In this document: piece by piece, positions 1 to 64,000 of the stretch
Layout: every line of letters begins with the position of its first letter
Position numbering within the stretch: position 1 is the stretch's first letter
Source of the DNA: Aquificota bacterium
Lineage (GTDB): Bacteria; Aquificota; Aquificia; Aquificales; Hydrogenothermaceae
NCBI GenBank assembly: GCA_013153635.1
Contig: JAADDZ010000014.1
Span: forward strand, 124,001-188,000
Direction of reading: 5' to 3'
Length of the DNA: 64,000 nucleotides
Notes under the pieces: model-generated
Told to the model about the DNA's origin: nothing
What the model saw: the letters and a program-made list of their open reading frames with translations, nothing else
The model's database searches: none
Program-made: the position numbers and the translations under genes

Positions 1-1
1 C

Positions 2-925
2 AAAGAAAAACTAAAAGACTGGAATGTTATTGAGTTAGATGCAGGGGAAAAGAAAGGTATAGACCACCTAAGAGAACTTATAAATCAGCTAGGTGGAGAA
101 AAAGTAGGTTTTGAAAAAGACAAAGTTACCATCTCCTTTTACGAAAAACTCCTAAACAAAAACTCAAAAGAAAAAAAAGATAGACTCCATTCTCATCTTA
201 TAGGATACGAAGGTTTCCTTAATGAGATTCGTATGGTTAAAACAGAAGAAGAAATAAACATAATAAAACAAGCTGTAAAAAAAACAGATAACATCTTTAA
301 AAAACTGTTAAAAGAGATTCCAAAATCAAAAACAGAACTAGATATAAGAAAAAAAATCATCAACTACATATTTGAGGAAGGAGGAACAGGAGAAAGCTTT
401 CCAGCCATTGTAGCATCAGGAGAGCATTCAGCCATACCTCATTGGGAAACATCCTCTTCTAGTTTAAAGTGGAACACATTTTTACTTATAGATATGGGTC
501 TAATCTACAAAGGTTACTGTTCAGATTTTACCCGAACAATCGGTTTAGGAAAGATAGATAAAGAGTTAGAAAAGATATATCACATAGTAAAAGAAGCCCA
601 CGAAGAAGCAACAAATGTAGTAAAAGCTGGGATACCAATTGGAGAGATAGACCTTGCGGCACGAAGAGTGATAGAAAAAGCTGGATACAAAGAATATTTT
701 ATCCATTCAACAGGACATGGAATCGGAGTAGAGATTCATGAAGAACCTAGGATATACAAAACAAATCAAGACCTATTACAAGAAAATACAGTATTTACAA
801 TAGAACCGGGAGTCTACATTCCGGGAAAAGCTGGAGTTAGGCTCGAAAACATTGTAGTCTGTAGAAAAGATAAAGCACAAGTATTAACTGAAACAGATTT
901 AGAACTTAGGATATTAGAAAGATGA
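2..925 (+). CDS. M24 metallopeptidase (Xaa-Pro aminopeptidase type), 5' end cut by window
   Basis: Open in frame from base 2, so the start lies upstream of the window. The visible part holds the end of the N-terminal creatinase-like domain and the whole pita-bread catalytic domain. The linker [10 protein letters not shown] near base 230 is typical of PepP/PepQ-type Xaa-Pro peptidases. The five metal ligands can be placed: Asp in LLIDMG, Asp in CSDFTRT, His in STGHGIG, Glu in TIEPGVY and Glu in VRLENIV. These enzymes remove an N-terminal residue next to proline or split Xaa-Pro dipeptides in the cytoplasm. The ATG at 233 lies inside the conserved region and is not the start. The stop overlaps the next gene by four bases (ATGA), so the two are probably co-translated. 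PepP versus PepQ cannot be settled. Confidence 0.88.
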
Positions 926-1551
926 AATTAGACAAGATACTCTTGGCAACTACAAATAAAGGTAAACTAAAAGAATTTAAACATCTCCTAAAAGATGCAG
1001 AGATACAGATTCTATCTCTACAAGATATGCCTCAAAAAATAGAAGTAGTAGAAGATAGACCTACCTTTTTAGAAAATGCTATAAAAAAGGCTAAAGAATA
1101 CGCTTTATTTTATAAAGTTCCAGTTATTGCTGAAGATGCAGGACTAGAGATAGATGCCCTTGGAGGCTTTCCCGGAGTATATTCAGCTAGATTTTTTTCT
1201 TTAAAAGAATTTGGAGGAGAAGAGCCTGTACAAGACAGTACAGATAGAGCAAACATATTAAAAGTTCTTAGACTGATGGAAGGGGAAAAAAATAGAACCG
1301 CTAGATTTGTAAGTAATATCGTCCTTTATATTCCAGAAGAAGAAGGTTTTTGGACAGAAGGTTATCTGTACGGAGAAATTACCCAATCTCCATTAGGAGA
1401 AGGAGGTTTTGGGTATGACCCTATATTCAGACCTATAGATTCAGAAAAAACGCTAGCTCAACTTAGTCCTGAAGAGAAAAACAGAATTAGTCATAGAGGC
1501 CAAGCTGTAAGAAAACTTATAAAAGTTATTAAACAGCTGAAAAATGAATGA
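922..1551 (+). CDS. rdgB: XTP/dITP diphosphatase (RdgB/HAM1 family)
   Basis: A house-cleaning enzyme that hydrolyses non-canonical purine triphosphates (XTP, dITP) to monophosphates and so keeps deaminated bases out of DNA and RNA. The 209 residues match the family length. The N-terminal nucleotide-binding motif [10 protein letters not shown] is at residues 9-18, the [12 protein letters not shown] active-site segment follows in the first half, and the C-terminal SHRGQA motif is present. The start overlaps the M24 peptidase stop by four bases and the end overlaps the M20 peptidase start by eight, so all three form one operon. Confidence 0.95.
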
Positions 1552-2620
1552 TATAAAAGTAAACAAAGAAAAATTAAAAAACTACCTAAAAGAGCTTGTA
1601 TCTATACCTAGTTACAAGGATTGTAAAAATATTCAAAACTACATATCAGATAAACTTTCTTTTTTGAGATGGGAAAAACAGTTTATTGGAAAAAATGACC
1701 TATACAACCTTATCAGTATAAACCCAAGAAAACCTTTTTTGATAAACACCCACGTAGATACAGTACCTCCTATAGATATGGAAAATCCATTTGAACTAAA
1801 AGAAAAAAACGGAGCTTTTTATGGGAGAGGGACAGCTGACACAAAAGGATTGATAGCATCTTTAATACTGGCTATTGAACTGTTCAAAAAAAATTTTCCC
1901 AAAAAAGAATTGCCTGTATCTTTGGCTTTTACAGTGGACGAAGAACAAAATACAGCCCTTGGTTCTGAAAAATTGAGAGAAGTTCTTAAGCCTATAAAAT
2001 ATGCTCTAATATTAGAGCCTACATATGAAAAGATATGTAATAAACAGATGGGAACAGTAGAGTTTAGACTCGATTTACAAGTCCCCTCGGCACATGCGGC
2101 TGAATTTGAAAAATATACAAATCCTTCTAAAGAGCTATGTAGAATATTAAACCAACTAGAAGATACCTTACAAAGAGATATAAACATAATAAAATTCCAT
2201 AGTGGTTGGGAATATTATGCAATCCCAAAAGAAGCCCAAATTTTAGGTGAATTTAAAATCTATGAAGGAGAAAAGGCAAAAACCTTAGAACAAAAATTAA
2301 TAGAAACCATAGCCAAACATAAAAATCTCCAATGCACTATAGAAGATAGTGAAGATTTTTTATACTTTGGAGAAGGGTTTTTAGTAGACACACTAAAAAA
2401 AGCATACTCAAAAGCTCTAAACAAAGAAGCTAAACTAGGAACTATGCCGTCTTGGACTGACGCGGCAAATATCTGTAAAGAAAATGTGGAATGTGTGATA
2501 TTTGGTACTTCACATCTTGATATAGCCCATACAGATAGGGAACATATAACAGTAAAACAGATGGAAGATATGACAAAAGTCCTTTATTCCCTTTTTTCCA
2601 TTCTTAGCCATTTGACATAG
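1544..2620 (+). CDS. M20-family zinc metallopeptidase/deacylase (ArgE/DapE/LysK-like)
   Basis: Cytoplasmic di-zinc hydrolase of 358 residues. The family pattern is clear: [10 protein letters not shown] with ligands His70 and Asp72, GRGTADTKG with the bridging Asp99, and the catalytic Glu pair in TVDEEQN near 133-134. A lid-domain insertion lies between about 165 and 280, and a C-terminal His ligand sits in SHLDIAHT. Related enzymes deacylate N-acetylornithine, N-succinyl-diaminopimelate or N-acetyl-lysine, or cleave peptides, and the sequence alone does not choose. It overlaps rdgB by eight bases. Its 3' end overlaps the convergent GNAT gene by 37 bases, so no terminator fits between them. 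Confidence 0.82.
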
Positions 2621-3042
2621 TCATACACAGGTAAAAATCCATAGTTCCTATAGAGTTTTATTGCTGAAGCATTCTTCTTCCCCACCCATAAACCTAAAAT
2701 ATCTACATTCTTTGATTTTAGATGCTCTATCGCTGTATCTAACAGCAATTTTCCTAAACCTTTTCCCCAGTATTTCTTCTTTAACGCCAACTCGTGAATC
2801 TCACCAACTCTTTTACCATCTATCCTTTTCCAGTTAGCATCAGCAACCACAAAACCTACTGGCTCTCCATCAACAAATAGAATTTTGAACAAAGTAGAAT
2901 GGTTCCTTAACCAGTTTATATACTTTTTTGCTCTTTCCTTAGAAGGTTCTCCATATTCAGGAAAATCTTGATAAGCGTCCATTAGTATATCAACTAATGC
3001 ATCTATATAATCTTGAGAAAAGTCCTTAAGTTCGACTTTCAT
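2584..3042 (-). CDS. GNAT-family N-acetyltransferase
   Basis: Small acetyltransferase of 152 residues. The acetyl-CoA pyrophosphate-binding loop is visible as KYWGKGLGKLLL, followed by the helix and the ASAIKLYRNYGF segment typical of RimI-like GNAT proteins. The substrate is unknown. It may acetylate a protein N-terminus or a small amine. Its ATG shares one base with the stop of the upstream thiO gene (TAATG), which implies translational coupling. It converges on the M20 peptidase with a 37-base overlap. Confidence 0.8.
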   Translation of the reverse strand: MKVELKDFSQDYIDALVDILMDAYQDFPEYGEPSKERAKKYINWLRNHSTLFKILFVDGEPVGFVVADANWKRIDGKRVGEIHELALKKKYWGKGLGKLLLDTAIEHLKSKNVDILGLWVGKKNASAIKLYRNYGFLPVYDYVKWLRMEKRE

Positions 3043-4130
3043 TACTTTAAAAATCTCTTATAAGAGAAACTCTCTAGATATTCTGATTTTTCCCTTTTAT
3101 GAATAAGGTCTGTTATTACTTTTACTGTAATAGGAGCTAATAAGATACCATTCCTATGATGACCTGTGGCATAAAAAAGACCTTCAATGTCACTTTCTCC
3201 TAGAATAGGTTCTAAATCAGGAGTAGCAGGTCTATATCCGTACCACATCTCTTGTATATTTCTATCTCTCATGTGAGGAAAAGTCTGTATCAAACCATTT
3301 AAAAGCTTTAATACCCCTTTTACAGTATTTCCATCTTTAAACCCTACCTTCTCCTCTGTAGCTCCTATAACTAAACGGCTGTAGTCCTTACGAGGTATTA
3401 GATAAGCTTTAGAACTAAAGAAAACCATATCTAGCTCTCCTTTTTTAATATCAACAGCACTCATCTCTCCTTTTATTGGGAACACTGGAATATCTGCGAT
3501 TTCTCCTGACCAAGCTCCAGCGGCTAATATACAGACGTCTCCATCTATGTAATTCTTATCTGTTCTTACCGCCTCAAACTTTCCATTGCTGGTTATAATC
3601 TTTTCTACTTTGCTATGCTCATAAGCCATTATGTTATATTCCCTACAGTACAACGTGAGAGCTTCCATCAGTAACCTATTATCAACTTGAGCATCTTCAG
3701 GATAAAAAACACCTCCTACTATATCCTCTCCAAGAGAAGAAAATCTTTTCTCTAAATCTTCCCTGTCTATCCACTCTCCACTAAGTCCCAAATTTTTATA
3801 CATTGTGAGTTTTTGTAAAAGCTGAACCTTTTCTTCCAACGAAAAAGCGGGACAAAAGATACCCGATTTCCAGTAACCTACATCAAGCCCTGTATCAACA
3901 AAAATCTCCTTTGTAAAAGCTTGATACATATCTCTACTTTCTAAACAAAAATCCAAAAATATCCCGGGTTCTAACCCTTCAGATTGAGGAGCTAGCATTC
4001 CACCAGCTACCCAAGAAGCTCCCTTGCCAATCTCCCCTTTATCAACTACTACAACCTCATACCCTAACTTGTGAAACTCTCTAGATATGGAAAGACCGAT
4101 TATACCACCACCAACTACAACTATTCTCAT
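3042..4130 (-). CDS. thiO: Glycine oxidase ThiO / DAO-family FAD oxidoreductase
   Basis: FAD-dependent amine oxidase of the D-amino-acid-oxidase fold. In thiamine synthesis ThiO converts glycine to dehydroglycine for the thiazole ring. The N-terminal Rossmann motif VVVGGGIIGLSI binds FAD, followed by GKGASWVAGGML, and the C-terminal FAD-contact segment YATGHHRNGILLAP is typical of ThiO. I chose the ATG at 4130, because GGAGAGG lies just before it. A longer frame would use a TTG at 4142 that falls upstream of this ribosome site. No other thiamine genes are nearby, so the assignment rests on sequence. Confidence 0.82.
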   Translation of the reverse strand: MRIVVVGGGIIGLSISREFHKLGYEVVVVDKGEIGKGASWVAGGMLAPQSEGLEPGIFLDFCLESRDMYQAFTKEIFVDTGLDVGYWKSGIFCPAFSLEEKVQLLQKLTMYKNLGLSGEWIDREDLEKRFSSLGEDIVGGVFYPEDAQVDNRLLMEALTLYCREYNIMAYEHSKVEKIITSNGKFEAVRTDKNYIDGDVCILAAGAWSGEIADIPVFPIKGEMSAVDIKKGELDMVFFSSKAYLIPRKDYSRLVIGATEEKVGFKDGNTVKGVLKLLNGLIQTFPHMRDRNIQEMWYGYRPATPDLEPILGESDIEGLFYATGHHRNGILLAPITVKVITDLIHKREKSEYLESFSYKRFLK

Positions 4131-4174
4131 TCTCCTCTCCAAAGAATATACCTAGTAACATTCGTATATCATAA

Positions 4175-4222
4175 TATAATGCTTTTTTTGTTTTTTATTC
4201 AAATATTTGAATATGATAAAAT
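4175..4222 (+). promoter_or_regulatory. pgk promoter with an 18-base palindrome
   Basis: An extended -10 element TGATAAAAT lies at 4214-4222. Directly upstream is the perfect palindrome TATTCAAATATTTGAATA at 4196-4213, in the spacer where a repressor or activator would act. A second -10-like TATAAT is at 4175-4180. The region also carries whatever drives the divergent thiO gene. The promoter is inferred from sequence and the operator role is speculative. Confidence 0.5.
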
Positions 4223-4253
4223 TTTAGGAGCTATTAACAAAAGGGGGACTGTT

Positions 4254-5447
4254 TTGTTCAATAACTATATGACTTTAGAAGATGTAGATGTCTCTAACAA
4301 GAGGGTATTCGTTAGAACAGATTACAATGTACCTCTTGATGAGTTTGGTAACATAGTAGACGACACAAGAATCAGAGAAACTATCCCTACTATAAACTAC
4401 CTAATAGACAGAAAAGCAAAAGTAATACTCGCTTCACATCTTGGAAGACCAAAAGGAATAGACCCTAGGTACTCCCTCTACCCTATTGCAAAAAGGCTAG
4501 AAAGACTACTAGGCAAAGAGGTAAAATTTGCCCCAGACTGTATAGGAGAAGAAGTAGAAAACATGGTAAACGAACTAAAACCGGGGGAAGTTATCCTTTT
4601 AGAAAACCTTCGTTTTCATGAAGGAGAAGAGAAAAATGACCCAGAATTTGCAAAAGCTTTAGCAAAGCTTGCAGACATATATGTAATTGATGCATTTGGA
4701 ACATGCCATAGAAAACATGCATCTATGTACGGAATAAAAGATTTTATCCAGCCAGTAGTTATGGGATTTCTATTAGAAAGAGAGCTTAAATACTTCGAAA
4801 AAGCATTAGTCAACCCTCAAAGACCTGTAGTAGCATTTATAGGAGGAGCAAAAGTTTCCTCTAAGTTAGGAGTTATAAAACACTTATTAGAGAAAGTAGA
4901 CAAAATATTCATCGGGGGAGCAATGGCGTTTACTTTTATAAAAGCTCTTGGATACAACGTAGGAAGCTCATTAATAGAAGAAGATATGTTCGAAGAAGCA
5001 TTAAAAGCCTTAGATAGAGCAAAAGAACTAGACGTTAAGTTTTATCTACCTGTAGATTTTGTATGTGGACAAGCTATATCGGAAGAAACACCAGTTATTG
5101 AAGTAGCATGGCAAGAAATACCAAAAGGTTGGATGGGCTTGGATATAGGTCATGCATCAGTAGTCCTGATAAAAGAAATAATAAGAGATGCCCAAACAAT
5201 AATATGGAACGGTCCAATGGGTGTTTTTGAAATAGATAAGTTTAAAATGGGAACCTTTAGTTTAGCTCATGCAATTGCAGAATCTCCAGCTCTCTCAATC
5301 GCAGGAGGAGGAGACACTGATTATGCCATACACAAAGCAGGGGTAGCTGACGGAATTAGTTATATATCAACTGGAGGTGGAGCATTTCTAAAGCTATTAG
5401 AAGGAAAACCTCTCCCATGCCTAGAAGCGATAACAAAAAAATCATAA
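4254..5447 (+). CDS. pgk: Phosphoglycerate kinase
   Basis: Catalyses 1,3-bisphosphoglycerate + ADP to 3-phosphoglycerate + ATP in glycolysis and gluconeogenesis. Motifs run in order: VRTDYNVPLDE and ASHLGRPKG (substrate-binding N domain), DAFGTCHRKHASMYG, GGAKVSSKLGVI, IWNGPMGVFE, and GGGDTDYAIHKAG with STGGGAFLKLLEG (nucleotide-binding C domain). The length of about 397 residues is normal. The frame is open well upstream, but conserved sequence begins at MTLEDVDV. I place the start at TTG 4254, six bases after the ribosome site GGGGG at 4243-4247. ATG 4269 is the alternative but lies too far from it. suhB follows 11 bases after the stop. Confidence 0.93.
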   Translation: MFNNYMTLEDVDVSNKRVFVRTDYNVPLDEFGNIVDDTRIRETIPTINYLIDRKAKVILASHLGRPKGIDPRYSLYPIAKRLERLLGKEVKFAPDCIGEEVENMVNELKPGEVILLENLRFHEGEEKNDPEFAKALAKLADIYVIDAFGTCHRKHASMYGIKDFIQPVVMGFLLERELKYFEKALVNPQRPVVAFIGGAKVSSKLGVIKHLLEKVDKIFIGGAMAFTFIKALGYNVGSSLIEEDMFEEALKALDRAKELDVKFYLPVDFVCGQAISEETPVIEVAWQEIPKGWMGLDIGHASVVLIKEIIRDAQTIIWNGPMGVFEIDKFKMGTFSLAHAIAESPALSIAGGGDTDYAIHKAGVADGISYISTGGGAFLKLLEGKPLPCLEAITKKS

Positions 5448-5458
5448 AAGAGGAACAA

Positions 5459-6253
5459 ATGATTGAAGAATTTGTACAAACAGCAAAAGAAGCATCTGTT
5501 ATAGGAGGGCAAATCCTAAAAGAGCATTTTAAACAGATAAGGAAAAAAGACATAGAGCTAAAAGGAATAAAAGATTTTGTAACTTACGTAGATAAACAGT
5601 CAGAGAAAAGAATTAGAGAATTTTTGTTAAATACATATCCAAATCATGCATTCTTAGGAGAAGAAGAAGGAAAAATAGGGAATAAGGACAGTGAATACAC
5701 ATGGATAGTAGACCCTTTAGACGGAACCAAAAACTACATAAATGGATTTGAAATATTTGCAGTATCTATAGCCCTAGCCAAAAAAAACGACATCATAGCT
5801 GGAGCTATATACATACCAATGCTAGACAAACTGTACTGGACAGGAAAAAACCTAGGAGCATACCTAAACGGAGAGAAAATAACCGTATCAAACAGAACGA
5901 AAGATTATGCAGTAATAGCTACAGGATTTCCATTTAGACATATAGAAGAGATAGACATATATTTAAAAGCATTTAGAGAAGCTATGATTACCTTTTCTGG
6001 AGTAAGGAGACCCGGAGCGGCGGCAGTAGACCTAGCTTTGACAGCAGAAGGAGTCTTTGATGGCTTTTTCGAAATGAAGCTGTCAGTATGGGACATAGCC
6101 GCAGGATATTTGCTAGTAAAAGAAGCTGGAGGTATTTTTACAAACTTTGAAGAAAAAGAGATACTAGATGGAAATGTTATCGCCGGAAATAAATATATAT
6201 ACGAAGACCTAAAAAGTATAGTCAAAAAAACAATCCTACAAGAGAAGAAATGA
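5459..6253 (+). CDS. suhB: Inositol-1-monophosphatase family protein (SuhB-like)
   Basis: Mg2+-dependent phosphatase of the inositol monophosphatase/FBPase superfamily, about 264 residues. The metal-binding signature DPLDGTKNYINGF is present, with the upstream GEEEG glutamate motif and the C-terminal WDIAAGYLLVKEAGG motif. In bacteria SuhB can act as a phosphatase and as a ribosomal RNA maturation/antitermination factor. In thermophiles related enzymes may also dephosphorylate fructose 1,6-bisphosphate. The ATG at 5459 follows AGAGGAA. A start at 5417 would overlap pgk by 31 bases with no better site. The stop overlaps pheA by four bases (ATGA). Confidence 0.88.
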   Translation: MIEEFVQTAKEASVIGGQILKEHFKQIRKKDIELKGIKDFVTYVDKQSEKRIREFLLNTYPNHAFLGEEEGKIGNKDSEYTWIVDPLDGTKNYINGFEIFAVSIALAKKNDIIAGAIYIPMLDKLYWTGKNLGAYLNGEKITVSNRTKDYAVIATGFPFRHIEEIDIYLKAFREAMITFSGVRRPGAAAVDLALTAEGVFDGFFEMKLSVWDIAAGYLLVKEAGGIFTNFEEKEILDGNVIAGNKYIYEDLKSIVKKTILQEKK

Positions 6254-7338
6254 GTAAAGAGTACGAAAAAGAACTTACAAAACTTAGAAAAGAGATAGAC
6301 AAAATAGACCAAAAAATAGTAGAACTTCTAAACAAAAGAGCAAAATTAGCTAAAAAAGTAGGCAAACTAAAAAAGAAATACAACAAACCTATATATGTTC
6401 CCGGTAGAGAACAAGAGATATTCGAAAGATTAGAAAAACTCAACCAAAAATATGGAGAATTTCCCACCAGTTCTATAAAGCCAGTATTTAGAGAGATTAT
6501 ATCAGCATGTAGGTCAACAGAAGAAAACCTAAAAGTCGCGTATTTAGGTCCCAGAGCGACCTTTACCCATTTAGCAAGTTTGAAACATTTTGGACAAGCG
6601 GTAGAACATATCCCAGTCTCTACCACAGAAGATGTCTTTGAAGAGCTGATAAAAAATAGAGTAGATTACGGCGTAGTACCTGTAGAAAATACAATAGAAG
6701 GAGCTATAAGTCATACATTAGACTTACTTATAGACTACCCTTTAAAAATAACAGGAGAGATAGTGCTAGAAATATCTCTACATCTGATGAGCATGAACCC
6801 TAACCTATCCCAGATAAAAAGAATCTATTCCCATAGATTTGGGTTTGCAGAAAGTAAAAACTGGCTACAGAAAAATATGCCAAACGTACAAACCATAGAA
6901 GTAGAAAGCACAGCCAAAGCCGCAGAAATAGTAAAAGACGATTTTGAAGCGGCGGCTATTGCCAGTGAAGCGGCGGCAGAACTATACGGCTTACATATAC
7001 TAGAGAGGAAGATAGACATACACCCTCAAAACTACACAAGATTTTTGATAATAGGAAAAAACACCCCACCCCCTTCAGAAAACGACAAAACAACATTCAT
7101 ATTTTCAGTAAAAAATGAAGTGGGAGCCTTGTACAAAGTCCTTGAACCCTTACACAGAAACAAAATAAACATGACCAAAATAGAATCAAGACCCAAGAAA
7201 AGAGAAGCTTGGGATTACATATTCTTCACAGATATAGAAGGACATATACAAGAACCCCAAGTCCAAAAAGCATTAGAAGAGCTAAAACAAAAAACACCAT
7301 TCTTCAAAATATTAGGTTCTTACCCTAAAGCTCAATAA
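6250..7338 (+). CDS. pheA: Bifunctional chorismate mutase / prephenate dehydratase (P-protein)
   Basis: Converts chorismate to prephenate and then phenylpyruvate for phenylalanine synthesis. Residues 1 to about 90 form an AroQ-type helical mutase (RKEIDKIDQKIVELLNKR). A dehydratase domain follows, starting VAYLGPRATFTHLAS and containing the catalytic NYTRFLIIG segment. A C-terminal ACT domain has GALYKVLEPL and the phenylalanine-contact ESRP motif, so feedback inhibition by phenylalanine is expected. The 362 residues are normal. The gene overlaps suhB by four bases. The 3' end overlaps the convergent lptG-like gene by 14 bases. Confidence 0.95.
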   Translation: MSKEYEKELTKLRKEIDKIDQKIVELLNKRAKLAKKVGKLKKKYNKPIYVPGREQEIFERLEKLNQKYGEFPTSSIKPVFREIISACRSTEENLKVAYLGPRATFTHLASLKHFGQAVEHIPVSTTEDVFEELIKNRVDYGVVPVENTIEGAISHTLDLLIDYPLKITGEIVLEISLHLMSMNPNLSQIKRIYSHRFGFAESKNWLQKNMPNVQTIEVESTAKAAEIVKDDFEAAAIASEAAAELYGLHILERKIDIHPQNYTRFLIIGKNTPPPSENDKTTFIFSVKNEVGALYKVLEPLHRNKINMTKIESRPKKREAWDYIFFTDIEGHIQEPQVQKALEELKQKTPFFKILGSYPKAQ

Positions 7339-8398: not shown

Positions 8399-8502
8399 AA
8401 AGCCCTCCCACTACAAACAGACTCTCAACATCAACACAGAAAACCAACCACAATTCCTCTTTAAAACCTCTGCAAAAATAGGTAAAGACAACAAGACCTC
8501 TA

Positions 8503-8531: not shown

Positions 8532-8554
8532 ATAAAGGTTAAAATCAAAAAGCA

Positions 8555-8620: not shown

Positions 8621-8625
8621 AGAAT

Positions 8626-10119: not shown

Positions 10120-10826
10120 GCCTCAAATATAAAAGAATCTTGCTAAAACTATCAGGCGAAGCATTAATGGGAGACCTATCCTACGGGATAGACCCAAAAT
10201 TTATAAACATACTGTCAAACGAAATAAAAGATGTTTATGACCTAGGAGCGCAAATCTCCATCGTCATAGGTGGAGGAAACATATTTAGAGGTATGCAAGG
10301 AACAGCTATAGGCATGGATAGAGCTACAGCAGACTACATGGGAATGTTAGCAACAGTGATGAACGCCTTAGCTCTTCAAGATGTACTTGAAAAAAAAGAA
10401 ATTCCTACTAGAGTGATGTCTGCAATAGAGATGAGACAGATAGCAGAACCATACATAAGAAGAAGAGCAATAAGACATCTAGAAAAAGGAAGAGTAGTAA
10501 TCTTTGCGGCAGGGACAGGAAGTCCCTTTTTTACCACAGATACAACAGGAGCATTGAGAGCGGCAGAAATAAAAGCAGATGTTCTGCTAAAAGGAACAAA
10601 AGTAGATGGAATCTATGATAAAGACCCTGAAAAATACCCAGATGCAAAACTCCTAAAAAAAATATCCTATATGGACGCCTTAAATAAAGGTATAAAAGTT
10701 ATGGATCACACAGCTATAACCCTGTGTAAAGAAAACAACCTACCAATCATAGTTTTTAACATAAAAAAACCCGGAAACCTAAAGAAGATAGTTCTTGGAG
10801 AAGACATAGGCTCACTAGTAAACTAA
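10116..10826 (+). CDS. pyrH: Uridylate kinase (UMP kinase)
   Basis: Phosphorylates UMP to UDP in pyrimidine synthesis. It is a hexameric bacterial UMP kinase of the amino-acid kinase fold, often regulated by GTP and UTP. Motifs include [38 protein letters not shown] and [19 protein letters not shown]. The start is TTG 10116, which overlaps the tsf stop (TTGA) and follows the ribosome-binding stretch GGGGAAGAGG. The 236 residues are typical. Position between tsf and frr is the classic bacterial order. Confidence 0.95.
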
Positions 10827-10845
10827 AACTACACGGAGGGGTAAA

Positions 10846-11938: not shown

Positions 11939-13063
11939 ATGTCAGTTAAACTAAAGAACGTTATAGAAACAGTAGCAAAAGAAAAGAATGTTCCAGAAGA
12001 AATCATAGAAAAAGCATTAAAAGAAGGTATAATCACTGCAGTAAGAAAAGAATACAAAATTCCCAGAGAATTCATAAAAATAAATTTCGACAAAGAAAAT
12101 GACATACTAAAAGTATACGTAAAAAAGAAAGTTACCCCCTTTGTAGAAGACCCAAGAAAAGAAATATCCCTACAAGAAGCAAAACAATACGAACCAAACG
12201 CAGAAGTTGGAAAATACGTATATATCCCCCTTGACCTAGAAGAACTCGGAAGAATCGCACTATCAGCGGCAAAAGAAGTTATATCCAAAAAAGTATCAGA
12301 AGTAGAAAAAGATATACTTTTTAGAGAATTTAAAGAACTAGAAGGCAAAATAGTAACAGGAACAGTGAGAAGATTCGAAGATGGAGACATAATAGTAGAT
12401 TTAGGAAGAGTAGAAGCAGTACTTCCAGAAGAAGAACAGATAAAAAAAGAGAACTACAAAATTGGAGATAGAATAAGAGCTTTAATATTAAAAGTACTAA
12501 AAGATGGTTCATACGCCATATATAGAAAAGGAAAAGTAAAGAGATACATAAAATCCCAAAATGGTCCCCTTGTGATACTATCAAGAACACACCCAAACTT
12601 CTTAAAAAAACTACTAGAAATAGAAATACCAGAAATTCAAGAAGGAGAAATAGAAGTAAAAGCTGTAGCTAGAGAGCCGGGAGAAAGAGCAAAAGTAGCA
12701 GTATACGCAAAAGACAAAAACATAGACCCAGTAGGCGTAGTAGTAGGATTAAAAGGCAGTAGAATCCAAAGCGTATCAAACGAGCTTTCTGGAGAAAAGA
12801 TAGATGTTATAGAGTGGGACCCAGACCCAGCCAAATTTATACTAAAAGCTCTCTCTCCAGCAAAACCTACAAAATGGAGAGTCTTAGAAGACGAAAAGAG
12901 AATAGAAGTAGCCGTACCAAAGGAAGAACTGTCCCTAGCCATAGGAAAACATGGAATAAACGCCAAACTAGCCAACAAACTCACAGGTTGGCATATAGAC
13001 ATACTTAGTGAAGAAGACTTTGACAAAATCCAACAGCTACCAAGAGGAAAAGAAACTGTCTAA
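11939..13063 (+). CDS. nusA: Transcription termination/antitermination protein NusA
   Basis: Binds RNA polymerase and nascent RNA, and promotes pausing, termination and antitermination. The 374 residues hold an N-terminal polymerase-binding domain (1 to about 125), an S1 domain (ELEGKIVTGTVRRFEDGDIIVDLG) and two KH domains, the first containing PVGVVVGLKGSRIQSV and the second LAIGKHGINAKLANKLTGW. The C-terminal acidic repeats of E. coli NusA are absent, which is normal outside the proteobacteria. The stop overlaps the ATG of the YlxR reading frame by one base (TAATG). Confidence 0.95.
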   Translation: MSVKLKNVIETVAKEKNVPEEIIEKALKEGIITAVRKEYKIPREFIKINFDKENDILKVYVKKKVTPFVEDPRKEISLQEAKQYEPNAEVGKYVYIPLDLEELGRIALSAAKEVISKKVSEVEKDILFREFKELEGKIVTGTVRRFEDGDIIVDLGRVEAVLPEEEQIKKENYKIGDRIRALILKVLKDGSYAIYRKGKVKRYIKSQNGPLVILSRTHPNFLKKLLEIEIPEIQEGEIEVKAVAREPGERAKVAVYAKDKNIDPVGVVVGLKGSRIQSVSNELSGEKIDVIEWDPDPAKFILKALSPAKPTKWRVLEDEKRIEVAVPKEELSLAIGKHGINAKLANKLTGWHIDILSEEDFDKIQQLPRGKETV

Positions 13064-27431: not shown

Positions 27432-28316
27432 ATGGTTTTTGACATAGGAATTCGAATATTAATAGTACTAACAACACTACTTTTGATATTTTATGAACAG
27501 TTAGACTATAAGATACCCTTTTTAGTGTTAACCTTATTTTATATATCATCTATTTTTGTTTTACTATCTTTCTCAAGAGAAAAACCTTTAAAATTCCTCA
27601 TATTCCTAGTAGATATCATATTTATATCAACTTTTTCTTACCTTACATCTTACCCAGAAATCGCTCTTTTTATATTCCCATTGGCTATAAATTTCTTAGA
27701 AAACAAAAAAAACATTATACAGTTCTCTATCTTTGCTTTGATTCCTGTCCTAGTAGGTATATATATATCTGGATTTTCAGAAATAGCTTTTATAACTATA
27801 TATCTAGCCTTTATCATTTCTTTTATAGGTTTTTATTCCAAACTAAACAAAGAAAAGCAGACCATAGATAAAATAAAATCAAACATGGAAAACCTATACG
27901 TACAAAATCTGGAACTTCAAGATGAAATAACCAAATACAAACATCTACAAGATATATATGACCTAACTATAAAACTAAACGAAAGGAAAATATCCTTACA
28001 AGCATACCTAACAGCTGTATATGAACTAACAAACACAAAAGGAATAGTCTTTTATGACTTTTTAGGAAAAAAATGTATATCTATAGGGAATCTAGAGTGT
28101 AAAAAAGATATTCCAAAATATCTAACTACCGGTTTTAATGTTTTACAAGATACCAAAGTAAACAAAGAACTGCTCACAAAGTACATAATATCCTTTTCTG
28201 TAGAAAACAAAAACAACATTCACGGCTTTCTACTATTAGGTTACGAATCTTTAGACGAAGAAGAGCTAAATATTATAAAAACGATATTTATAGGAATAAA
28301 ATCTTATCACTGCTAA
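27432..28316 (+). CDS. Membrane protein with coiled coil and GAF-like C-terminal domain
   Basis: Residues 1 to about 140 form four to six hydrophobic helices (VLTTLLLIFY, FLVLTLFYISSIFVLL, FIPVLVGIYIS-like segments, FITIYLAFIISFIGFY). A coiled coil follows at about 140-180 (KSNMENLYVQNLELQDEI), then a domain of about 110 residues that looks GAF-like (LTAVYELTNTKGIVFYDFLG, HGFLLLGYESLDEEELNIIKT). No kinase, GGDEF or EAL domain is attached. The layout resembles the N-terminal part of a sensor such as PelD, but homology is not established. It begins at the base after the preceding stop. Its end overlaps aat by four bases. Confidence 0.62.
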   Translation: MVFDIGIRILIVLTTLLLIFYEQLDYKIPFLVLTLFYISSIFVLLSFSREKPLKFLIFLVDIIFISTFSYLTSYPEIALFIFPLAINFLENKKNIIQFSIFALIPVLVGIYISGFSEIAFITIYLAFIISFIGFYSKLNKEKQTIDKIKSNMENLYVQNLELQDEITKYKHLQDIYDLTIKLNERKISLQAYLTAVYELTNTKGIVFYDFLGKKCISIGNLECKKDIPKYLTTGFNVLQDTKVNKELLTKYIISFSVENKNNIHGFLLLGYESLDEEELNIIKTIFIGIKSYHC

Positions 28317-33947: not shown

Positions 33948-34421
33948 TCAAAATGTCATTACTATTGGCTTATCAGAACTATTTACAAAATTTAAAAAAG
34001 TGGCGGCTCCTGCTGGTTTCTGTACACCTTCTATCAAGTCTTCTTTCTTGTAACCAAACATCTGCATAGCAGTTTGGCAGGGGAAAAGTTTCACATCAAG
34101 CTCCAAAGCCTGATTTATCAACTCTTCTAAAGAAGGTATCTTGTTTTTTTTCATCATCTTTTTCATCATATTTGTTGCAAAATCCATCATTCCCGGAAGA
34201 ATAGTTACTATCTGTGGAACAGATACAGGCATAGCAGGATTTCCTATAGGGGATACTTTGAGATTTTTTAGTTTTTCCTTATGAATAACATTTATTCCAT
34301 AAAAACTAAAAAACATACCTGTTTCCATACCCATAGCGGCGGCAGTAGTAGCAAGCATAAAAGGAGGAAGTACTTTGTCAAGAGTTCCACTTAAAACGAT
34401 AATTCCTACTCGTGTTTTCAT
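33948..34421 (-). CDS. DsrE/F-like (DsrE2-type) sulfurtransferase-related protein
   Basis: The 157 residues match the DsrE/DsrF/DrsH-like family, DsrE2 type. RVGIIVLSGTLDKVLPPFMLA at the N terminus is followed by AAAMGMETGMFFSFYGINVI and the C-terminal cysteine motif PCQTAMQMFGYKKEDLI, whose Cys normally carries persulfide sulfur. DsrE2 proteins are often membrane-associated and linked to sulfur oxidation with rhodanese and TusA, none of which are adjacent here. This fits a sulfur-metabolising organism. It lies 14 bases after rseP in the same operon. Confidence 0.85.
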   Translation of the reverse strand: MKTRVGIIVLSGTLDKVLPPFMLATTAAAMGMETGMFFSFYGINVIHKEKLKNLKVSPIGNPAMPVSVPQIVTILPGMMDFATNMMKKMMKKNKIPSLEELINQALELDVKLFPCQTAMQMFGYKKEDLIEGVQKPAGAATFLNFVNSSDKPIVMTF

Positions 34422-43911: not shown

Positions 43912-43984
43912 GGCCAGGTAGCTCAGTTGGTAGAGCACGCGGCTGAAAACCGCGGTGTCGGCGGTTCGATTCCGCCCTTGGCCA
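43912..43984 (+). tRNA. tRNA-Phe (GAA)
   Basis: A complete 73-base cloverleaf. The acceptor arms GGCCAGG and CTTGGCC pair over seven positions with one G-T. The D arm is GCTC...GAGC, the anticodon stem CGCGG/CCGCG has loop CTGAAAA with anticodon GAA, and the T arm is GGCGG/CCGCC with TTCGATT. The discriminator is A at 43984. CCA is not encoded. The gpsA stop, on the other strand, is four bases beyond. Confidence 0.97.
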
Positions 43985-50161: not shown

Positions 50162-50238
50162 TGGTGGCGGTAGGAGGATTCGAACCTCCGACACCGCGGA
50201 TATGAGCCGCGTGCTCTAACCGACTGAGCTATACCGCC
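50162..50238 (-). tRNA. tRNA with anticodon CAU (elongator Met or Ile2), CCA encoded
   Basis: A 77-base cloverleaf on the minus strand. The acceptor GGCGGTA pairs with TACCGCC, with discriminator A and an encoded CCA. The D arm is GCTC/GAGC, the anticodon stem CGCGG/CCGCG with loop CTCATAT, and the T arm GGAGG/CCTCC with TTCGAAT. It starts with a G-C pair and lacks the three G-C pairs of initiator tRNA, so it is not fMet. It may be elongator tRNA-Met or the lysidine-modified tRNA-Ile2. The acceptor looks like some elongator Met tRNAs, but its place directly before tilS suits Ile2. Confidence 0.95.
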
Positions 50239-50248: not shown

Positions 50249-50518
50249 TTATGAAGATTTTTTTGAGTTTACTAGTTTTGAAACTCTAGATATTCTTCTA
50301 GATGCTTCATTTTTTGGTATAGCACCTTTTGCCGCCGCTCTATATGCTAGCTTTTGGGCAAGGGGTAATAGATTTTCGGCTGTCTCAATGTCACCTTTTT
50401 TAAGTGCTTCACGAATCCTTTTTAGTGTAGTTTTCATTCTAGAGATATGATACCTATTTAACAATCTTCTCTTTTGAGACTGTCTTATTCTTTTCCTTGC
50501 GGATTTTGTATGAGCCAT
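50249..50518 (-). CDS. rpsT: 30S ribosomal protein S20
   Basis: Small-subunit protein binding 16S rRNA, 89 residues and very basic. AHTKSARKRIRQSQKRRLLN and LAYRAAAKGAIPKNEASRRISR are family landmarks. The ribosome site AAGGAGGAG is upstream. It is the first gene of an rpsT-tRNA(CAU)-tilS-ftsH run on the minus strand, the tRNA following ten bases after the stop. Confidence 0.96.
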   Translation of the reverse strand: MAHTKSARKRIRQSQKRRLLNRYHISRMKTTLKRIREALKKGDIETAENLLPLAQKLAYRAAAKGAIPKNEASRRISRVSKLVNSKKSS

Positions 50519-50667: not shown

Positions 50668-51870
50668 TTGGCAAACATTAATGTAGGAAGCCTTGATTTT
50701 CCAAAAGTAGCTAGCCAACCAGTAGAAATCGTTGAAAGAAAAGGAGTAGGACACCCAGATACTATCTGTGATGCTTTAGCAGAAGAACTATCTATAGCTT
50801 TATCAAAAATGTATATAGATGAATGTGGTGCTATTATGCATCACAATGTAGACAAAGCTCTACTTATAGGTGGCGTAGCAGAACCTAGATTTAACGGTGG
50901 AATCATGATAGCCCCTATAAAAGTCTATCTTACTGGAAGAGCTTTAGACGAGATAAATGGAAAAAGACTGCCAGTTAGAGAGCTAGCGGTAGAAACTGCC
51001 CATAACTGGCTAAAAGACAATATCCCAAACTTAGATATAACAAATCACATAATAATAGAACCAGAGTTAAGACCCGGAAGTAAAGACTTGGTAGAACTCT
51101 TTGAAAGATTTCAAAAAGAAGGAGAAGTACCTCTAGCAAACGACACTTCATTTGGAGTAGGATATGCTCCTTTTGATGACACTGAAACGATAGTCTACGA
51201 ATTAGAAAGAGCCTTGAATCATAAAGATTTTAAAAAAGAACACCCGTATGTAGGAGAAGATATAAAAGTTATGGGCGTAAGAACTGAAGATTACATAAAG
51301 ATAACAATAGCAATGGCTTTTGTAGACAAATATATTAGCTCTTTGAAAGACTACATAGAAAAAAAAGATATTGTGTCTAATTATGCATACTCTATAGCAA
51401 GAAAGCTAACAACCCATGAAGTAGATGTTTTTATAAATACTGCAGATGACCCAGAAAACAACTCTGTATACATAACAGTTACAGGTACATCTGCCGAAGC
51501 TGGTGATGACGGAGAAGTAGGTAGAGGAAATAGAGTGAATGGACTTATAACACCGTACAGACCAATGAGTCTAGAAGCGGCGGCAGGAAAAAATCCAGTA
51601 AGTCACATAGGAAAAATATACAATACTGCCGCAATGGACATGGCAGAGAGAATCGTTGCAGAGTTTGAAGAAATAGATGAAGCTTATGTCTACCTTGTAA
51701 GTCAAATAGGAAAACCTATCACAGAGCCTCAAGTATGTGATATAAAGCTAAGAACAAACAAGGATATTAAAACTTTAGAAGAAAAGGTAAAAAAGATAGC
51801 TCAAGAAGAGATTGAAAAATTACCTTCTACATGGAAAAAGTTTTTAAAAAGACATTTTAGAATTTATTAA
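50668..51870 (+). CDS. mat: Archaeal-type methionine adenosyltransferase (SAM synthetase)
   Basis: Makes S-adenosylmethionine from methionine and ATP. The sequence follows the archaeal MAT family, not the bacterial Met[21 protein letters not shown] near the N terminus, [53 protein letters not shown] and [20 protein letters not shown]. Its 400 residues match the archaeal form. The start is TTG 50668 with CGGAGGT upstream. hemW starts eight bases after the stop. It is an unusual enzyme for a bacterium and probably an old transfer from archaea. Confidence 0.95.
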
Positions 51871-56313: not shown

Positions 56314-56315
56314 GG

Positions 56316-56864: not shown

Positions 56865-56876
56865 AGGAGGTAAAGA

Positions 56877-58391: not shown

Positions 58392-58403
58392 GAGAGGTAA
58401 AAA

Positions 58404-59285
58404 ATGGCAAAACTTTCACCAAGGGATATAAAAAGGAAGATAAACGGAATTAAAAATACCCAGAGAATCACCAAAGCCATGAAAGCGGTTTCTGCCGCTA
58501 AACTTAGAAAAGCCCAAATCCAGCTTAACGCTACTAGACCTTACTCAAATAAACTATATGAGCTTATATCAGACCTTGGATTATATGCAGACAGAGAAGC
58601 ACACCCCCTTTTAGAAATAAGAGAAGAAAAAAACAGTGTAGATTTTATAGTAGTTACAGCAGATAGAGGATTAGCAGGAGCTTTTAACTCATACGTTATC
58701 AAAACAGCAATAAAAGAAGTAGAAAAACTAAAACAAGAAGGAAAAGATGCCCATCTGATACTTATAGGAAGAAAAGCAGTACAGTTCTTCAAAAACAAAG
58801 ATTTCTCTATTATAGATGCTTACGAAGATGTCTATAGAGCTAACATGAATCTATCATTTACTTCTAAGATTGGAGAAATCATAGCAAACAGATATACAGA
58901 AAAAAAATCTGACGCAGTATTTATCATAAACAATGAACTACTAACTACAGTCAAATACGAAACCAAAATAAGAAAGTTACTTCCTATAGAAGCACAAATA
59001 GTAGAACCTACAAAACTAGATACATATGCCAAATACAATATAGAACCAACAAAAGAAGAAGTATTAGAACATCTACTAAAGATGTATATAAATTTCCAAA
59101 TTTACAGAGCGATGGTAGAATCTGCTACAGCAGAACACGCCGCTAGAATGATAGCTATGGACAACGCTACAAAAAATGCAGACGAAGCCATAAGAAAATG
59201 GACTATCATTTTTAACAAAGCTAGACAAGAAGCTATAACCACAGAACTCATTGATATTATAAATGCGGCAGAAGCTATCAAGTAA
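58404..59285 (+). CDS. atpG: ATP synthase subunit gamma
   Basis: Rotor shaft of F1. The 293 residues begin KRKINGIKNTQRITKAMKAV and end ITTELIDIINAAEAIK, the two helices forming the coiled-coil shaft. VVTADRGLAGAFNS marks the Rossmann-like domain. The ribosome site is AGAGGT. Confidence 0.97.
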   Translation: MAKLSPRDIKRKINGIKNTQRITKAMKAVSAAKLRKAQIQLNATRPYSNKLYELISDLGLYADREAHPLLEIREEKNSVDFIVVTADRGLAGAFNSYVIKTAIKEVEKLKQEGKDAHLILIGRKAVQFFKNKDFSIIDAYEDVYRANMNLSFTSKIGEIIANRYTEKKSDAVFIINNELLTTVKYETKIRKLLPIEAQIVEPTKLDTYAKYNIEPTKEEVLEHLLKMYINFQIYRAMVESATAEHAARMIAMDNATKNADEAIRKWTIIFNKARQEAITTELIDIINAAEAIK

Positions 59286-59305
59286 AAAATTTAGGAGGAA
59301 CATAA

Positions 59306-60751
<1,446 letters not shown>

Positions 60752-60763
60752 ATCATCTTCTCT

Positions 60764-60798
60764 AGGGGCTTTTAAGCCCCTTCTTACCTCTCTTTTAA
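60764..60798 (+). terminator. Hairpin terminator after the atp operon
   Basis: AGGGGCTT (60764-60771) and AAGCCCCT (60774-60781) form an 8-bp stem with a two-base gap, followed by the T-rich tract TCTTACCTCTCTTTT. The U tract is interrupted, so efficiency may be moderate. It separates the atp genes from the CRISPR operon. Confidence 0.7.
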
Positions 60799-60870
60799 TA
60801 TCCCCTTTTGTTAAAAGTCAGATTTTTATAATCTAAATCGTTTTTAGACTTAAAAGTTAGTAATTAATAA

Positions 60871-60900
60871 TTGACATGTTTTATAGTTTTGTACTTAAAT
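60871..60900 (+). promoter_or_regulatory. Promoter of the type III-A CRISPR operon
   Basis: A perfect TTGACA at 60871-60876 is followed after 18 bases by TTAAAT (60895-60900), 30 bases before the cas10 ATG. A TATAGT at 60882-60887 is closer but badly spaced. The rest of the 179-base spacer is AT-rich, and no CRISPR repeat is visible in it. Confidence 0.5.
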
Positions 60901-60930
60901 ATATTTGTGATAATAAGGGGGATATACTAA

Positions 60931-63513
60931 ATGGACAACCAAAAACAAAAGTACCTCACAGCCCTAGCTGGTCTATTTCACGACATAGGAAAGTTCTACC
61001 AAAGAGCAACTAATACAAAAACATCTACAGAAGAAAAAAGTCAGTTCGGCTACGCCCACGCAGTTTTATCTGCAAAAGCAATAAAAGAAGAACTCAACGA
61101 AGGTCTATCTGCCGTATTTTCTCCAGAAGAGATTGATTTTATCCTTGAAGGCACATACCATCACAAGCCTAAAAATCCTATCCAGTATCTAATGCAAAAA
61201 GCTGACTGGGTTTCTTCATCTGAAAGAGAAAAAGCAGAAGCAGAATATCTACTAACTATTGATGAACTAAAAGAAGAGATAAAAAATCTATCCGAAAAGA
61301 ATCCCCGTCTAAGAAGTATATTCGAAAGGTTAGAACTTGGGAAAAACTTAGAAAAAAGAGGGTTCGTCTACAAAATAACCCCTCTTGAGCTAAATGATGA
61401 TATATTCCCTCTACATCTAGAAGAAGATGTTCACAACGAAATCGCCAAATCTTTCAAAGAAATAGAACAACTTCTTGGAAGTTACAAAACCCACTGGAAT
61501 GCTTTTAAGGAAGAGTTTAACCAAAAGCTAAAAGACTCAAAACTGAAATTTAGTGAGAATCCTGAAAAAGTGTTTAGTCTTATTTATCATATATTTTACA
61601 AATACCTATGGTGTATCCCCGCCTCTACTTATGATAGAGAGAACTACTCAAGTCATTATCCGGATATATCCCTTTTTGATCACTCAAGGGTCTTGTCTGC
61701 AGTAGCTTGCTGTTTTTATGATTACGATAAAGATGGTTTTCAGCAGAAAACCCCCGCAGAATTTGAAGAAAAGTTAAAAGATAAAAATGTGTTTCTACAC
61801 CTAAAGGGAGATATAAGCGGAATTCAAAAATTTATCTACAATGTTTATCAAGGAAAAGGAGGTATCGCCAAAACTCTTAGAGGAAGGAGCTTTTATGTGG
61901 CAATGCTTCCTGAAGTACTATCTAGATACATTTTAAATGAACTTGGTTATCCTATCTCAAATCTTCTATACTCTGGCGGTGGTATATTTGAAATATTGGT
62001 CGCTAATACAGAGGAAAACAGAAAAAAGCTAAAGGAAATAGAGGACAAAATAAATGAATTTTTAGCCAGAAAATTTGAAGCTGATTTGGGACTTTCAATT
62101 GGAACTTATGAGTATTCCCCAGTTGAACTGATGACAAATTATGAAAACATTTTAGAACGGCTAAATGAGAGTTTAGATAACGCTAAAAAACAAAAATTTA
62201 AGGTAATTATAGAAAGTGGAAATATCTTTAAATTATTGAACTCAAATTCCAAAAAATTAGAAGAAGAAAATAAAAAGAAAAAGAAATGTCCAGTTTGCCA
62301 AACATACCTAATTGATGAAAATTTAGAAGGAGATAATGAACTTTGTGCTGTTTGTAAAGAATTTAGAGACATCGGAGATAATCTTCCACGAACAGAAACT
62401 TTAGTCTTTGCAAAAGAAAGCACCCAAAATTTTGTAGAGAATAAAAAATTAATTGATTTTGGAGATTTTGGTATTGTCTATCTACTAACGAAGGATAACT
62501 TTACTGATTTACAACCTATATATTTTGATAAAAAAACAACGGAAATTTTAGATATAAATGATACAAAATTAGATAAATACATAACAGGTTTTAAGTTTAT
62601 AGGCAAATCTGTTCCAGAGGTAAAAGAAAAAGAAAAATTATCTCCAGAAGAAACAGGAGAGGAAGAACCTATACATAGCGGTCAGATAGCACCTTTTACA
62701 TATCTTGCAAAACTGTCAGATGGAGATGAAAGAATAGGGATTCTTAGAATGGACGTTGATAACCTTGGAAAGCTATTTAGCAAAGGACTCAAAGGAAAAA
62801 TATCCATTTCACGAATTGCTACATTAAGCCGTTCGTTAGACCTGTTTTTTGCAGGTTATTTAAATAAAATAACCCAAAAACTTACCGATAGGTACAAGGA
62901 CAAAATAGAAAACCTAAAAGTGGATAACCTGTTTTACATACTCTATTCTGGTGGAGATGATGTATTTTTAGTCGCACCTTGGGATAAAGCCATAGAAATA
63001 TCACAAAAGATAAATGAGGAATTTTCTAAATATACGTGTAAAAATCCCAATGTTTCCATTTCAGCCGGATACTTACAAACAAAACCAAAATTCCCAATAA
63101 GAGTATCTGCTGAGATGGCAGGTGAAACAGAAGATAGAGCCAAAAAGGCTGGAAAAGATAGAATTTGTGTTTTAGGTGATGTTTTCAAATGGGAGGAGCT
63201 AAAGGATATAAAAGCAAAAGTAGAAGAATGGGCAAAAAAGATAAAAGGTGACCAACTTCAAAGAGGTTTTATCTATGCAGTCCACAGACTAAAAGAACAG
63301 TTTTTAAAAGATGAACAAGAAAGGTCAAAACTAGTTTTCCCTTATAAAAGAGAAGAAAATCCAATGTTTTACCCATACGCTCAATACTACATAGCAAGGA
63401 ATATAAAAAGTGAAGAGCTAAAAGAAGAAATTGCTAAGTTTTTGTTAGATAAGAAAAATTTCAACAAGTTAACTTTTACTGTTAACTATGTAGCACTTAA
63501 AACAAGAAAATAA
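60931..63513 (+). CDS. csm1: Cas10/Csm1, type III-A CRISPR effector large subunit
   Basis: Largest subunit of the Csm complex. On target-RNA binding it cuts DNA with its HD domain and makes cyclic oligoadenylates with its Palm domain. The HD motif LFHDIGKF gives His17-Asp18, and HHKP and ADWVSSSERE are Csm1 landmarks. The first Palm-like domain begins LKGDISGIQKFIYNVYQGKG. A zinc finger uses Cys453/456 (CPVC) and Cys472/475 (CAVC). The second Palm has GGDD at 674-677, so both HD and cyclase sites look intact. The 860 residues are typical. The presence of GGDD predicts a CARF effector (Csm6-like) elsewhere in the genome. No array is in this window. Confidence 0.95.
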   Translation: MDNQKQKYLTALAGLFHDIGKFYQRATNTKTSTEEKSQFGYAHAVLSAKAIKEELNEGLSAVFSPEEIDFILEGTYHHKPKNPIQYLMQKADWVSSSEREKAEAEYLLTIDELKEEIKNLSEKNPRLRSIFERLELGKNLEKRGFVYKITPLELNDDIFPLHLEEDVHNEIAKSFKEIEQLLGSYKTHWNAFKEEFNQKLKDSKLKFSENPEKVFSLIYHIFYKYLWCIPASTYDRENYSSHYPDISLFDHSRVLSAVACCFYDYDKDGFQQKTPAEFEEKLKDKNVFLHLKGDISGIQKFIYNVYQGKGGIAKTLRGRSFYVAMLPEVLSRYILNELGYPISNLLYSGGGIFEILVANTEENRKKLKEIEDKINEFLARKFEADLGLSIGTYEYSPVELMTNYENILERLNESLDNAKKQKFKVIIESGNIFKLLNSNSKKLEEENKKKKKCPVCQTYLIDENLEGDNELCAVCKEFRDIGDNLPRTETLVFAKESTQNFVENKKLIDFGDFGIVYLLTKDNFTDLQPIYFDKKTTEILDINDTKLDKYITGFKFIGKSVPEVKEKEKLSPEETGEEEPIHSGQIAPFTYLAKLSDGDERIGILRMDVDNLGKLFSKGLKGKISISRIATLSRSLDLFFAGYLNKITQKLTDRYKDKIENLKVDNLFYILYSGGDDVFLVAPWDKAIEISQKINEEFSKYTCKNPNVSISAGYLQTKPKFPIRVSAEMAGETEDRAKKAGKDRICVLGDVFKWEELKDIKAKVEEWAKKIKGDQLQRGFIYAVHRLKEQFLKDEQERSKLVFPYKREENPMFYPYAQYYIARNIKSEELKEEIAKFLLDKKNFNKLTFTVNYVALKTRK

Positions 63514-63573
63514 TGTCAGAAATTTATAAAGTATAGCGTTTTTAAAAAATAAATTCTAAGGAGGTTAATACTT

Positions 63574-63921
63574 ATGGATTACTTTAAAAAACCTCTGTCT
63601 TTAGGAGAACTTTATGATATGTTTGGTGAAGATTTACATTACAGTGAAATCAAAAAGATGGAAGGAATAACTTTAGAAGATTTATACTACATAGAAAAAC
63701 TACAACCTAAAGTAAGAACAGTAATAAATTCAGATTTCGTTAAATTCCTAAAACTTATAAAAAATTGTAAGAACCCAAGAGATGTCAAAATTCTATCAGA
63801 ACGATTCTTTCATGTATTAATAGACCCAAAAGAAATAGATAAAGAAACATCATTAGAAGAAAAATATGACCTAGCTTATAAAGAAGCGATAAGAATTTGG
63901 GAAATTAAAAAGGAGGATTAA
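63574..63921 (+). CDS. Small protein after csm1: Csm2-like or an unknown accessory
   Basis: A 115-residue protein with AAGGAGG upstream and 60 bases after csm1. It is acidic at the N terminus and helical, with VINSDFVKFLKLIKNCKNP in the middle; the size and helical content would fit Csm2, the usual gene after csm1. However I could not match a Csm2 motif, and another short gene with its own ribosome site follows immediately, so either may be csm2. The Csm operon position is certain; the identity is not. Confidence 0.5.
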   Translation: MDYFKKPLSLGELYDMFGEDLHYSEIKKMEGITLEDLYYIEKLQPKVRTVINSDFVKFLKLIKNCKNPRDVKILSERFFHVLIDPKEIDKETSLEEKYDLAYKEAIRIWEIKKED

Positions 63922-63924
63922 CCA

Positions 63925-64000
63925 ATGGGCAATAACCCAATCGAAGAATTTACACAAAAAATAGAAAGAGCCTCTTCTTTATCTGAAGTTCTATTACCAA
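63925..64000 (+). CDS. Start of the next CRISPR operon gene, cut by window end
   Basis: AAAGGAGGA is followed by ATG 63925, three bases after the previous stop. The 25 visible codons (GNNPIEEFTQKIERASSLSE and on) have no similarity I can see to Csm3, whose N terminus is usually a RAMP strand. It could be csm2 or an accessory gene. The frame is open to the window end. Confidence 0.6.
   Translation, partial: MGNNPIEEFTQKIERASSLSEVLLP

Follow-up and report, generated by a model that had tools for sequence, protein, structure and literature searches.

Likely restriction-driven loss of GCWGC and other recognition-type words from a Hydrogenothermaceae chromosome

The word GCWGC, written either GCAGC or GCTGC, is entirely missing from the DNA considered here, a window of 64,000 bases (34.4% G+C; positions 124001-188000 of contig 12) in an Aquificota metagenome-assembled genome (MAG) of the Hydrogenothermaceae. 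An earlier reading of the window, hereafter the original prediction, had claimed this absence, and word counts confirm it: there is no GCAGC and no GCTGC, where an order-3 Markov model expects 32.1 and 22.7 copies (about 55) and an order-2 model 46 for the pair. It is likely, in our judgment, that selection has purged this chromosome of the recognition words of restriction-modification (R-M) systems, GCWGC among them in the recent lineage. Restriction-driven avoidance of GCWGC is well supported, by the specificity of the words, the bending of codon choice, the loss of sites relative to congeners, the locations of the survivors, and the presence of an EcoRV-type gene pair in the same genome. 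The cause in the case of GCWGC is most likely an R-M system that has been lost or was not assembled.

The source assembly comprises 1.69 Mb in 28 contigs and is 96% complete. Judged by its core genes (IF-2, PNPase, FtsH, ATP synthase and PGK), the window is ordinary chromosome, and its PNPase has 71-76% identity to those of Persephonella/Hydrogenothermaceae MAGs. No large-subunit rRNA was found in the assembly, which thus behaves as a MAG with gaps. For a broader count, the window was pooled with twenty further stretches (378 kb, ten contigs) into a genome sample of 442 kb, or 26% of the genome. The original prediction had proposed a genome-wide count as its check, and in this sample the depletion holds, with 6 copies of GCWGC where 300 (order 2) or 356 (order 3) are expected.

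Among palindromic IUPAC words of 4-6 bases in the window, GCWGC (0 vs 46) is one of the most depleted, and it has company. The window holds 3 GATC vs 211 expected, 2 CCWGG vs 66, 3 CTSAG (CTCAG/CTGAG) vs 91, 1 GATATC vs 26, 0 GAGCTC vs 13, 5 GGCC vs 42 and 3 GGATG/CATCC vs 73. The 442-kb sample repeats the pattern at larger scale: GATC 35 vs 1415, CTSAG 18 vs 340-565, CCWGG 20 vs 361-457, GGATG 30 vs 472-504, GATATC 4 vs 188-266 and GGCC 37 vs 281. The degenerate word GDGCHC, at 0.14 of expectation, was assembled from its members (GAGCTC 10 vs 101, GAGCAC 7 vs 58, GGGCAC 4 vs 24, GAGCCC 13 vs 64, GTGCAC 0 vs 10). A scan of gapped words added two more. CABNNNVTG is depleted about nine-fold, with all B/V combinations at 0.05-0.17 and the forms with CAA or TTG at 1.0-1.5; other spacers tested between the same half-sites are less low. 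ACAAN8TAC stands at 0.11, with spacers of 7 and 9 normal. In all, the purged set comprises about ten words, each at 0-18% of expectation, ACAAN8TAC probably being a member. We know of no R-M system with the specificity CABNNNVTG; ACAAN8TAC resembles the sites of Type I systems.

Such gaps might be put down to a general bias in codons or oligonucleotides, or to an artefact of assembly; all that speaks for this is the low G+C content, and we find it scarcely credible. When synonymous codons were shuffled among 302 long open reading frames (ORFs), with every protein and total codon usage kept, the shuffle yielded 213 GCWGC (212.7 +/- 6.9) where 5 are seen. The other words behave alike (observed vs shuffled: GATC 27 vs 826, CCWGG 14 vs 249, GGATG 21 vs 325, CTSAG 7 vs 333, GATATC 0 vs 114, GDGCHC 24 vs 130, GGCC 29 vs 214, CABNNNVTG 43 vs 374, ACAAN8TAC 5 vs 55). 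Moreover, near neighbors are spared or even enriched: GCSGC occurs 228 times vs 59 after shuffling (3.9-fold up), CCSGG 196 vs 67 (2.9-fold up) and CTWAG 506 vs 505 (1.00). For the gapped words the depletion is exact to the spacer or half-site, ACAAN8TAC lying at 0.09 of the shuffled number and its N7 and N9 variants at 0.95 and 1.11, CABNNNVTG at 0.11 and CAAN3TTG at 0.89. Against an artefact, the words are swapped for variants inside long contigs rather than missing. The same null removed two candidates, GTAGN6TTTG and CTAAN3TTAG, which it makes rare too, and left GAAGN6GTG borderline (3 vs 18.8 +/- 4.9).

How codons are bent around GCWGC is plainest at alanine pairs. Over the 302 ORFs, the first codon of Ala-Ala is GCG 118 times, GCC 109, GCA 3 and GCT 2 (227 GCG/GCC vs 5 GCA/GCT), whereas the alanine codon of Ala-Asp is GCA 175 times, GCT 92, GCC 11 and GCG 4 (267 GCA/GCT vs 15 GCG/GCC). 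These counts bear out the original prediction that Ala-Ala is spelled with GCG or GCC in a genome where GCA and GCT are the usual choice, and its remark that GCGGC and GCCGC are frequent is likewise correct, both exceeding their Markov expectations in the window (34 vs 17 and 18 vs 11). Its idea that codon choice is bent to avoid one five-base word survives in its first half; the restriction to one word does not, at least nine others being equally avoided. The example positions that it gave all hold on re-reading of the sequence and are as follows, below an entry for the window itself.

1..64000, no strand: window with zero GCWGC and many depleted words, by word counts
6949..6977, + strand: GCGGC at 6949, 6952, 6970 and 6973, Ala-Ala as GCG-GCN in ORF 6250-7338 (frame by arithmetic)
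12266..12270, + strand: GCGGC, in-frame Ala-Ala in ORF 11939-13063
34336..34343, - strand: GCGGC at 34336 and 34339 on + (GCCGC on -), Ala run in ORF 33948-34421 (-)
50331..50338, no strand: GCCGC at 50331 and 50334, within short ORF 50249-50518 (-) of uncertain status
51577..51584, + strand: GCGGC at 51577 and 51580, in-frame Ala-Ala in ORF 50668-51870

Comparison with relatives shows the GCWGC loss to be private to this lineage. Depletion of GATC and GGCC is common among the 24 relatives sampled (several of the samples being of 5-40 kb only), and in the same set the joint deep depletion of GCWGC, GGATG, CTSAG and GATATC is seen in this genome only. Two congeners, G001 (343 kb) and G002 (179 kb), have observed/expected ratios of 1.12 and 0.88 for GCWGC, 0.89 and 0.58 for GATATC, 0.82 and 0.51 for CTSAG, and 1.08 and 0.68 for GGATG. 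In alignments to the source genome (79.5 kb at 72.5% identity for G001, 34.7 kb at 78.0% for G002), not one congener GCWGC site is kept (0/81 and 0/35), compared with 16.7% and 29.6% of other 5-mers with three or four G/C. In G002, 28 of the 35 sites are one base apart from the source sequence, and 25 of these differ at the central W (written as GCAGC, 13 to C and 12 to G); in G001, 40 of 55 one-step changes turn the central W to S (A3G 20, A3C 20). The classifiable coding losses leave every affected codon synonymous in 22 of 30 cases for the nearer G002 and in 40 of 76 for G001. The direction of change was not polarised site by site; it is the lineage-wide counts that place the change in the source lineage. 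The simplest reading is that selection removed GCWGC sites by the cheapest silent route.

The same substitutions bear on a mutational origin, in which methylated bases at these words would mutate quickly in the heat, through deamination of 5-methylcytosine. The host is a thermophile and the deamination is indeed heat-driven (PMC8557920), but we give this explanation almost no weight. The one-step losses of GCWGC are mainly GCW to GCS at the center, transitions and transversions being about equal, and are not C to T; C5 methylases are missing from the assembly; GATC and GATATC, as words of adenine methylases, should be untouched by cytosine deamination; and tRNA genes still hold sites, as described below.

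Relatives have avoidances of their own, such as CCWGG (0/19 in G010, 0/18 in G021) and ACGT (0.08 in G035, 0.10 in G010), and within the order, sets of strongly avoided words that change from genome to genome seem to be common. A 53-kb contig of another relative, G004, is low in several of the avoided words (CABNNNVTG 4 vs 58, both strands counted) and may be a plasmid.

For one of the purged words a matching R-M pair is at hand. An ORF on contig 13, at about 68.7-70.2 kb, is a homologue of the EcoRV endonuclease (Pfam Endonuc-EcoRV PF09233, E 1.4e-84; EcoRV chains in the PDB, 3e-47) and keeps the PD...DxK motif, its YPDFTL and ALDLKTSY aligning with YPDFTL and AIDIKTTY of EcoRV; on the same strand, and overlapping with it, is the gene of a Dam-family D12 adenine methylase. 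As in the EcoRV system, an endonuclease of this family adjoins a D12 methylase and GATATC is nearly gone from the host. The differences are that the host is an Aquificota thermophile and that the pair is known from sequence; moreover, the homologue was found in none of 40 relatives searched, most of which are without an equally deep GATATC depletion. This predicted GATATC cutter and its methylase account for the avoidance of GATATC, and such a pair beside a near-absent word demonstrates the principle within this very genome.

The sites that remain are also instructive. Of the six surviving GCWGC in the sample, one overlapping pair lies within the codons for the signal peptide of an outer-membrane-like protein, a second overlapping pair on a 3.85-kb contig, one site in an envelope/sugar gene block and one elsewhere. 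Eight tRNA genes, with a total of 611 bp, contain 6 of the sample's 18 CTSAG, plus 7 GDGCHC and 5 GGCC, and two of the window's three CTSAG fall in tRNA genes; thus words remain where silent change is impossible. On contig 3, the first 9.8 kb hold 12 GATC vs 26.5 expected and the next 10 kb 1 vs 28.3. The genes of this virus-like island (contig 3:1-9800) include a small packaging-type ATPase, an SLT lytic transglycosylase, a radical-SAM-like ORF and an ORF with a weak match to the PRD1-type P2 coat (E 0.011), of which no relative was found in IMG/VR; the island may represent a tailless double-jelly-roll virus with an Aquificota host. A jump in GATC density marks its edge on the contig. Contig 8, the 3.85-kb contig above, has near-normal GCWGC, GGATG and CTSAG and zero GATC or GGCC; with sugar-transferase, epimerase and PIN toxin-antitoxin genes, it either came in recently from another member of the family or is a contaminant of binning. 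Survivors in tRNAs, in the virus-like island and in foreign-looking DNA indicate that the words hold on where the sequence is under constraint or has arrived recently. An unprotected nuclease without a methylase was set aside as a cause, since sites do persist in tRNAs and elsewhere (some 35 GATC and 18 CTSAG in 442 kb). The survivors singled out in the window are listed here.

43912..43984, + strand: tRNA-Phe gene, densest survivor cluster in the window (GGCC at 43912 and 43980, CCAGG at 43914, CTCAG at 43922)
50162..50238, - strand: tRNA-Met gene with CTGAG at 50224
27612..27617, no strand: sole GATATC in the window
10704..10707, no strand: one of three surviving GATC (the others at 60662 and 61678)

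At the right end of the window, at 60931-63513 (+), lies a Type III-A CRISPR Cas10/Csm1 gene.

A history of self-restriction also meets with difficulties. The original prediction had named long exposure to a GCWGC R-M system as the cause and had proposed a search for its methyltransferase or nuclease gene. Restriction as the driver of avoidance is likely, as argued above; a present-day GCWGC system was not found, no methylase or nuclease for this word being identified in whole-assembly searches. There are two intact methylases for some ten avoided words, the whole-assembly set of DNA methylases being one D12 enzyme and two N6/N4-type loci, one intact and one frameshifted. If most of the systems are gone, a similar depth across the words needs either recent loss or continuing selection, and ACAAN8TAC looks like the site of a Type I system, a class rarely avoided (PMC4687349). 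Each of these points counts against our preferred explanation. C5 methylases (PF00145) have no match in the assembly and are found in 10 of 14 controls. For Type I HsdM/HsdS, the whole assembly has no PF01420 match, and PF02384 matches only RNA/protein methylase-like ORFs, as do all Eco57I-profile matches above the cut-off. The frameshifted locus (contig 12, 89.4-90.6 kb) is an N6/N4-type (Type II) methylase gene split in an A/T-rich run, with no nuclease recognised beside it, and is either what remains of an R-M system since lost or a gene subject to phase variation; it suggests that R-M systems do decay here. With ApeKI, TseI and BbvI the avoided word is shared, GCWGC and GCAGC being the same set of sites on double-stranded DNA. 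M.ApeKI, a thermophilic GCWGC methylase, is a C5 enzyme (PMC8557920), unlike anything in this assembly, where no homologue was identified.

The intact N6/N4-type locus, on contig 19 at 57.7-58.9 kb, offers a candidate. It adjoins an ORF of 372 aa, and the two might form a resident R-M pair for GCWGC that makes N4-methylcytosine, a modification toward which thermophiles tend (PMC8557920). Type II methylase profiles match the N6/N4-type protein, as does, weakly, the N4-cytosine methylase M.PvuII; its neighbor has a PDYDIF...QIR stretch and no match in any other of 136 phylum genomes, just as the GCWGC depletion is private. Nevertheless, we rate this assignment as rather improbable. The pair could equally serve CTSAG, CCWGG, GGATG, GDGCHC or CABNNNVTG, for each of which the depletion is similarly private or deep, and the 372-aa ORF has no match to a Pfam, NCBIfam or PADLOC family, to a PDB sequence or to a plasmid; its structural model is poor (mean pLDDT 47.5), the weak fold matches including PD-(D/E)XK nucleases but none below E 0.08. 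The GCWGC system is therefore this pair, or lost, or encoded in unassembled strain-variable DNA.

The excess of words over methylases is what would be expected if the purge came from DNA exchange between strains, site-free segments transferring or surviving better, so that a chromosome loses the words of any strain's systems. Several observations lean this way: GATC and GGCC depletion is common to much of the family, genomes avoid the words of systems in other conspecific strains in 43.3% of cases (PMC4687349), and MAGs lose strain-variable islands, the present one being without rRNA. However, self-restriction followed by loss fits the same data, and one genome of the species was examined; we regard exchange as a possibility of the lesser sort. 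With like reserve we raise the idea of a "taboo genome", from which some ten words would be kept out by continuing exchange among strains with different, fast-turning R-M systems. If true, the purge would mirror a population's whole restriction repertoire, gapped CABNNNVTG and ACAAN8TAC included, and not one cell's genes.

Under the self-restriction that we infer as the driver, an R-M system would occasionally leave one of its own sites unmethylated, its endonuclease would then cut the chromosome, and each site would carry a small fitness cost; site-destroying mutations, mostly synonymous, would be favored until few sites remained. The GCWGC genes would probably have been lost since, or would be strain-variable and have dropped out of the MAG.

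This looks like a known kind of phenomenon in which the number and depth of the words are an outlier and one word, ACAAN8TAC, is of an unusual type. For orthodox Type II sites, avoidance was reported in 47.9% of site-genome pairs at a cut-off of Kr < 0.78; it grows with the lifespan of a system and outlasts its loss, traces of lost systems being common, and genomes carry 2.3-2.6 R-M systems on average (Rusinov et al. 2015, PMC4687349). Our case shares with that survey the under-representation of palindromic and asymmetric words, the traces of lost systems and the dependence on lineage; it differs in that some ten words stand at 0-18%, two of them gapped, and that for most of them no methylase is visible. 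In phages and plasmids too, short R-M words are purged, mostly silently (PMC6286503, PMC10359461), whereas here a whole chromosome is affected and purging is weaker in the virus-like island than beside it. A literature search of partial coverage turned up no publication dealing with site avoidance in the order.

Some ten words cut to a few per cent of expectation within the divergence of one genus is an extreme case, and it amounts to a fossil record of restriction specificities, gapped ones included, that are no longer visibly encoded. There is also a practical marker, in that DNA still carrying the words, like the virus-like island and the foreign-looking contig, stands out as recently arrived. 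Possible uses lie in timing the gain and loss of R-M systems, in predicting which words to remove or methylate for transforming such hosts, and in deciding between self-cutting and inter-strain exchange as the route of selection.

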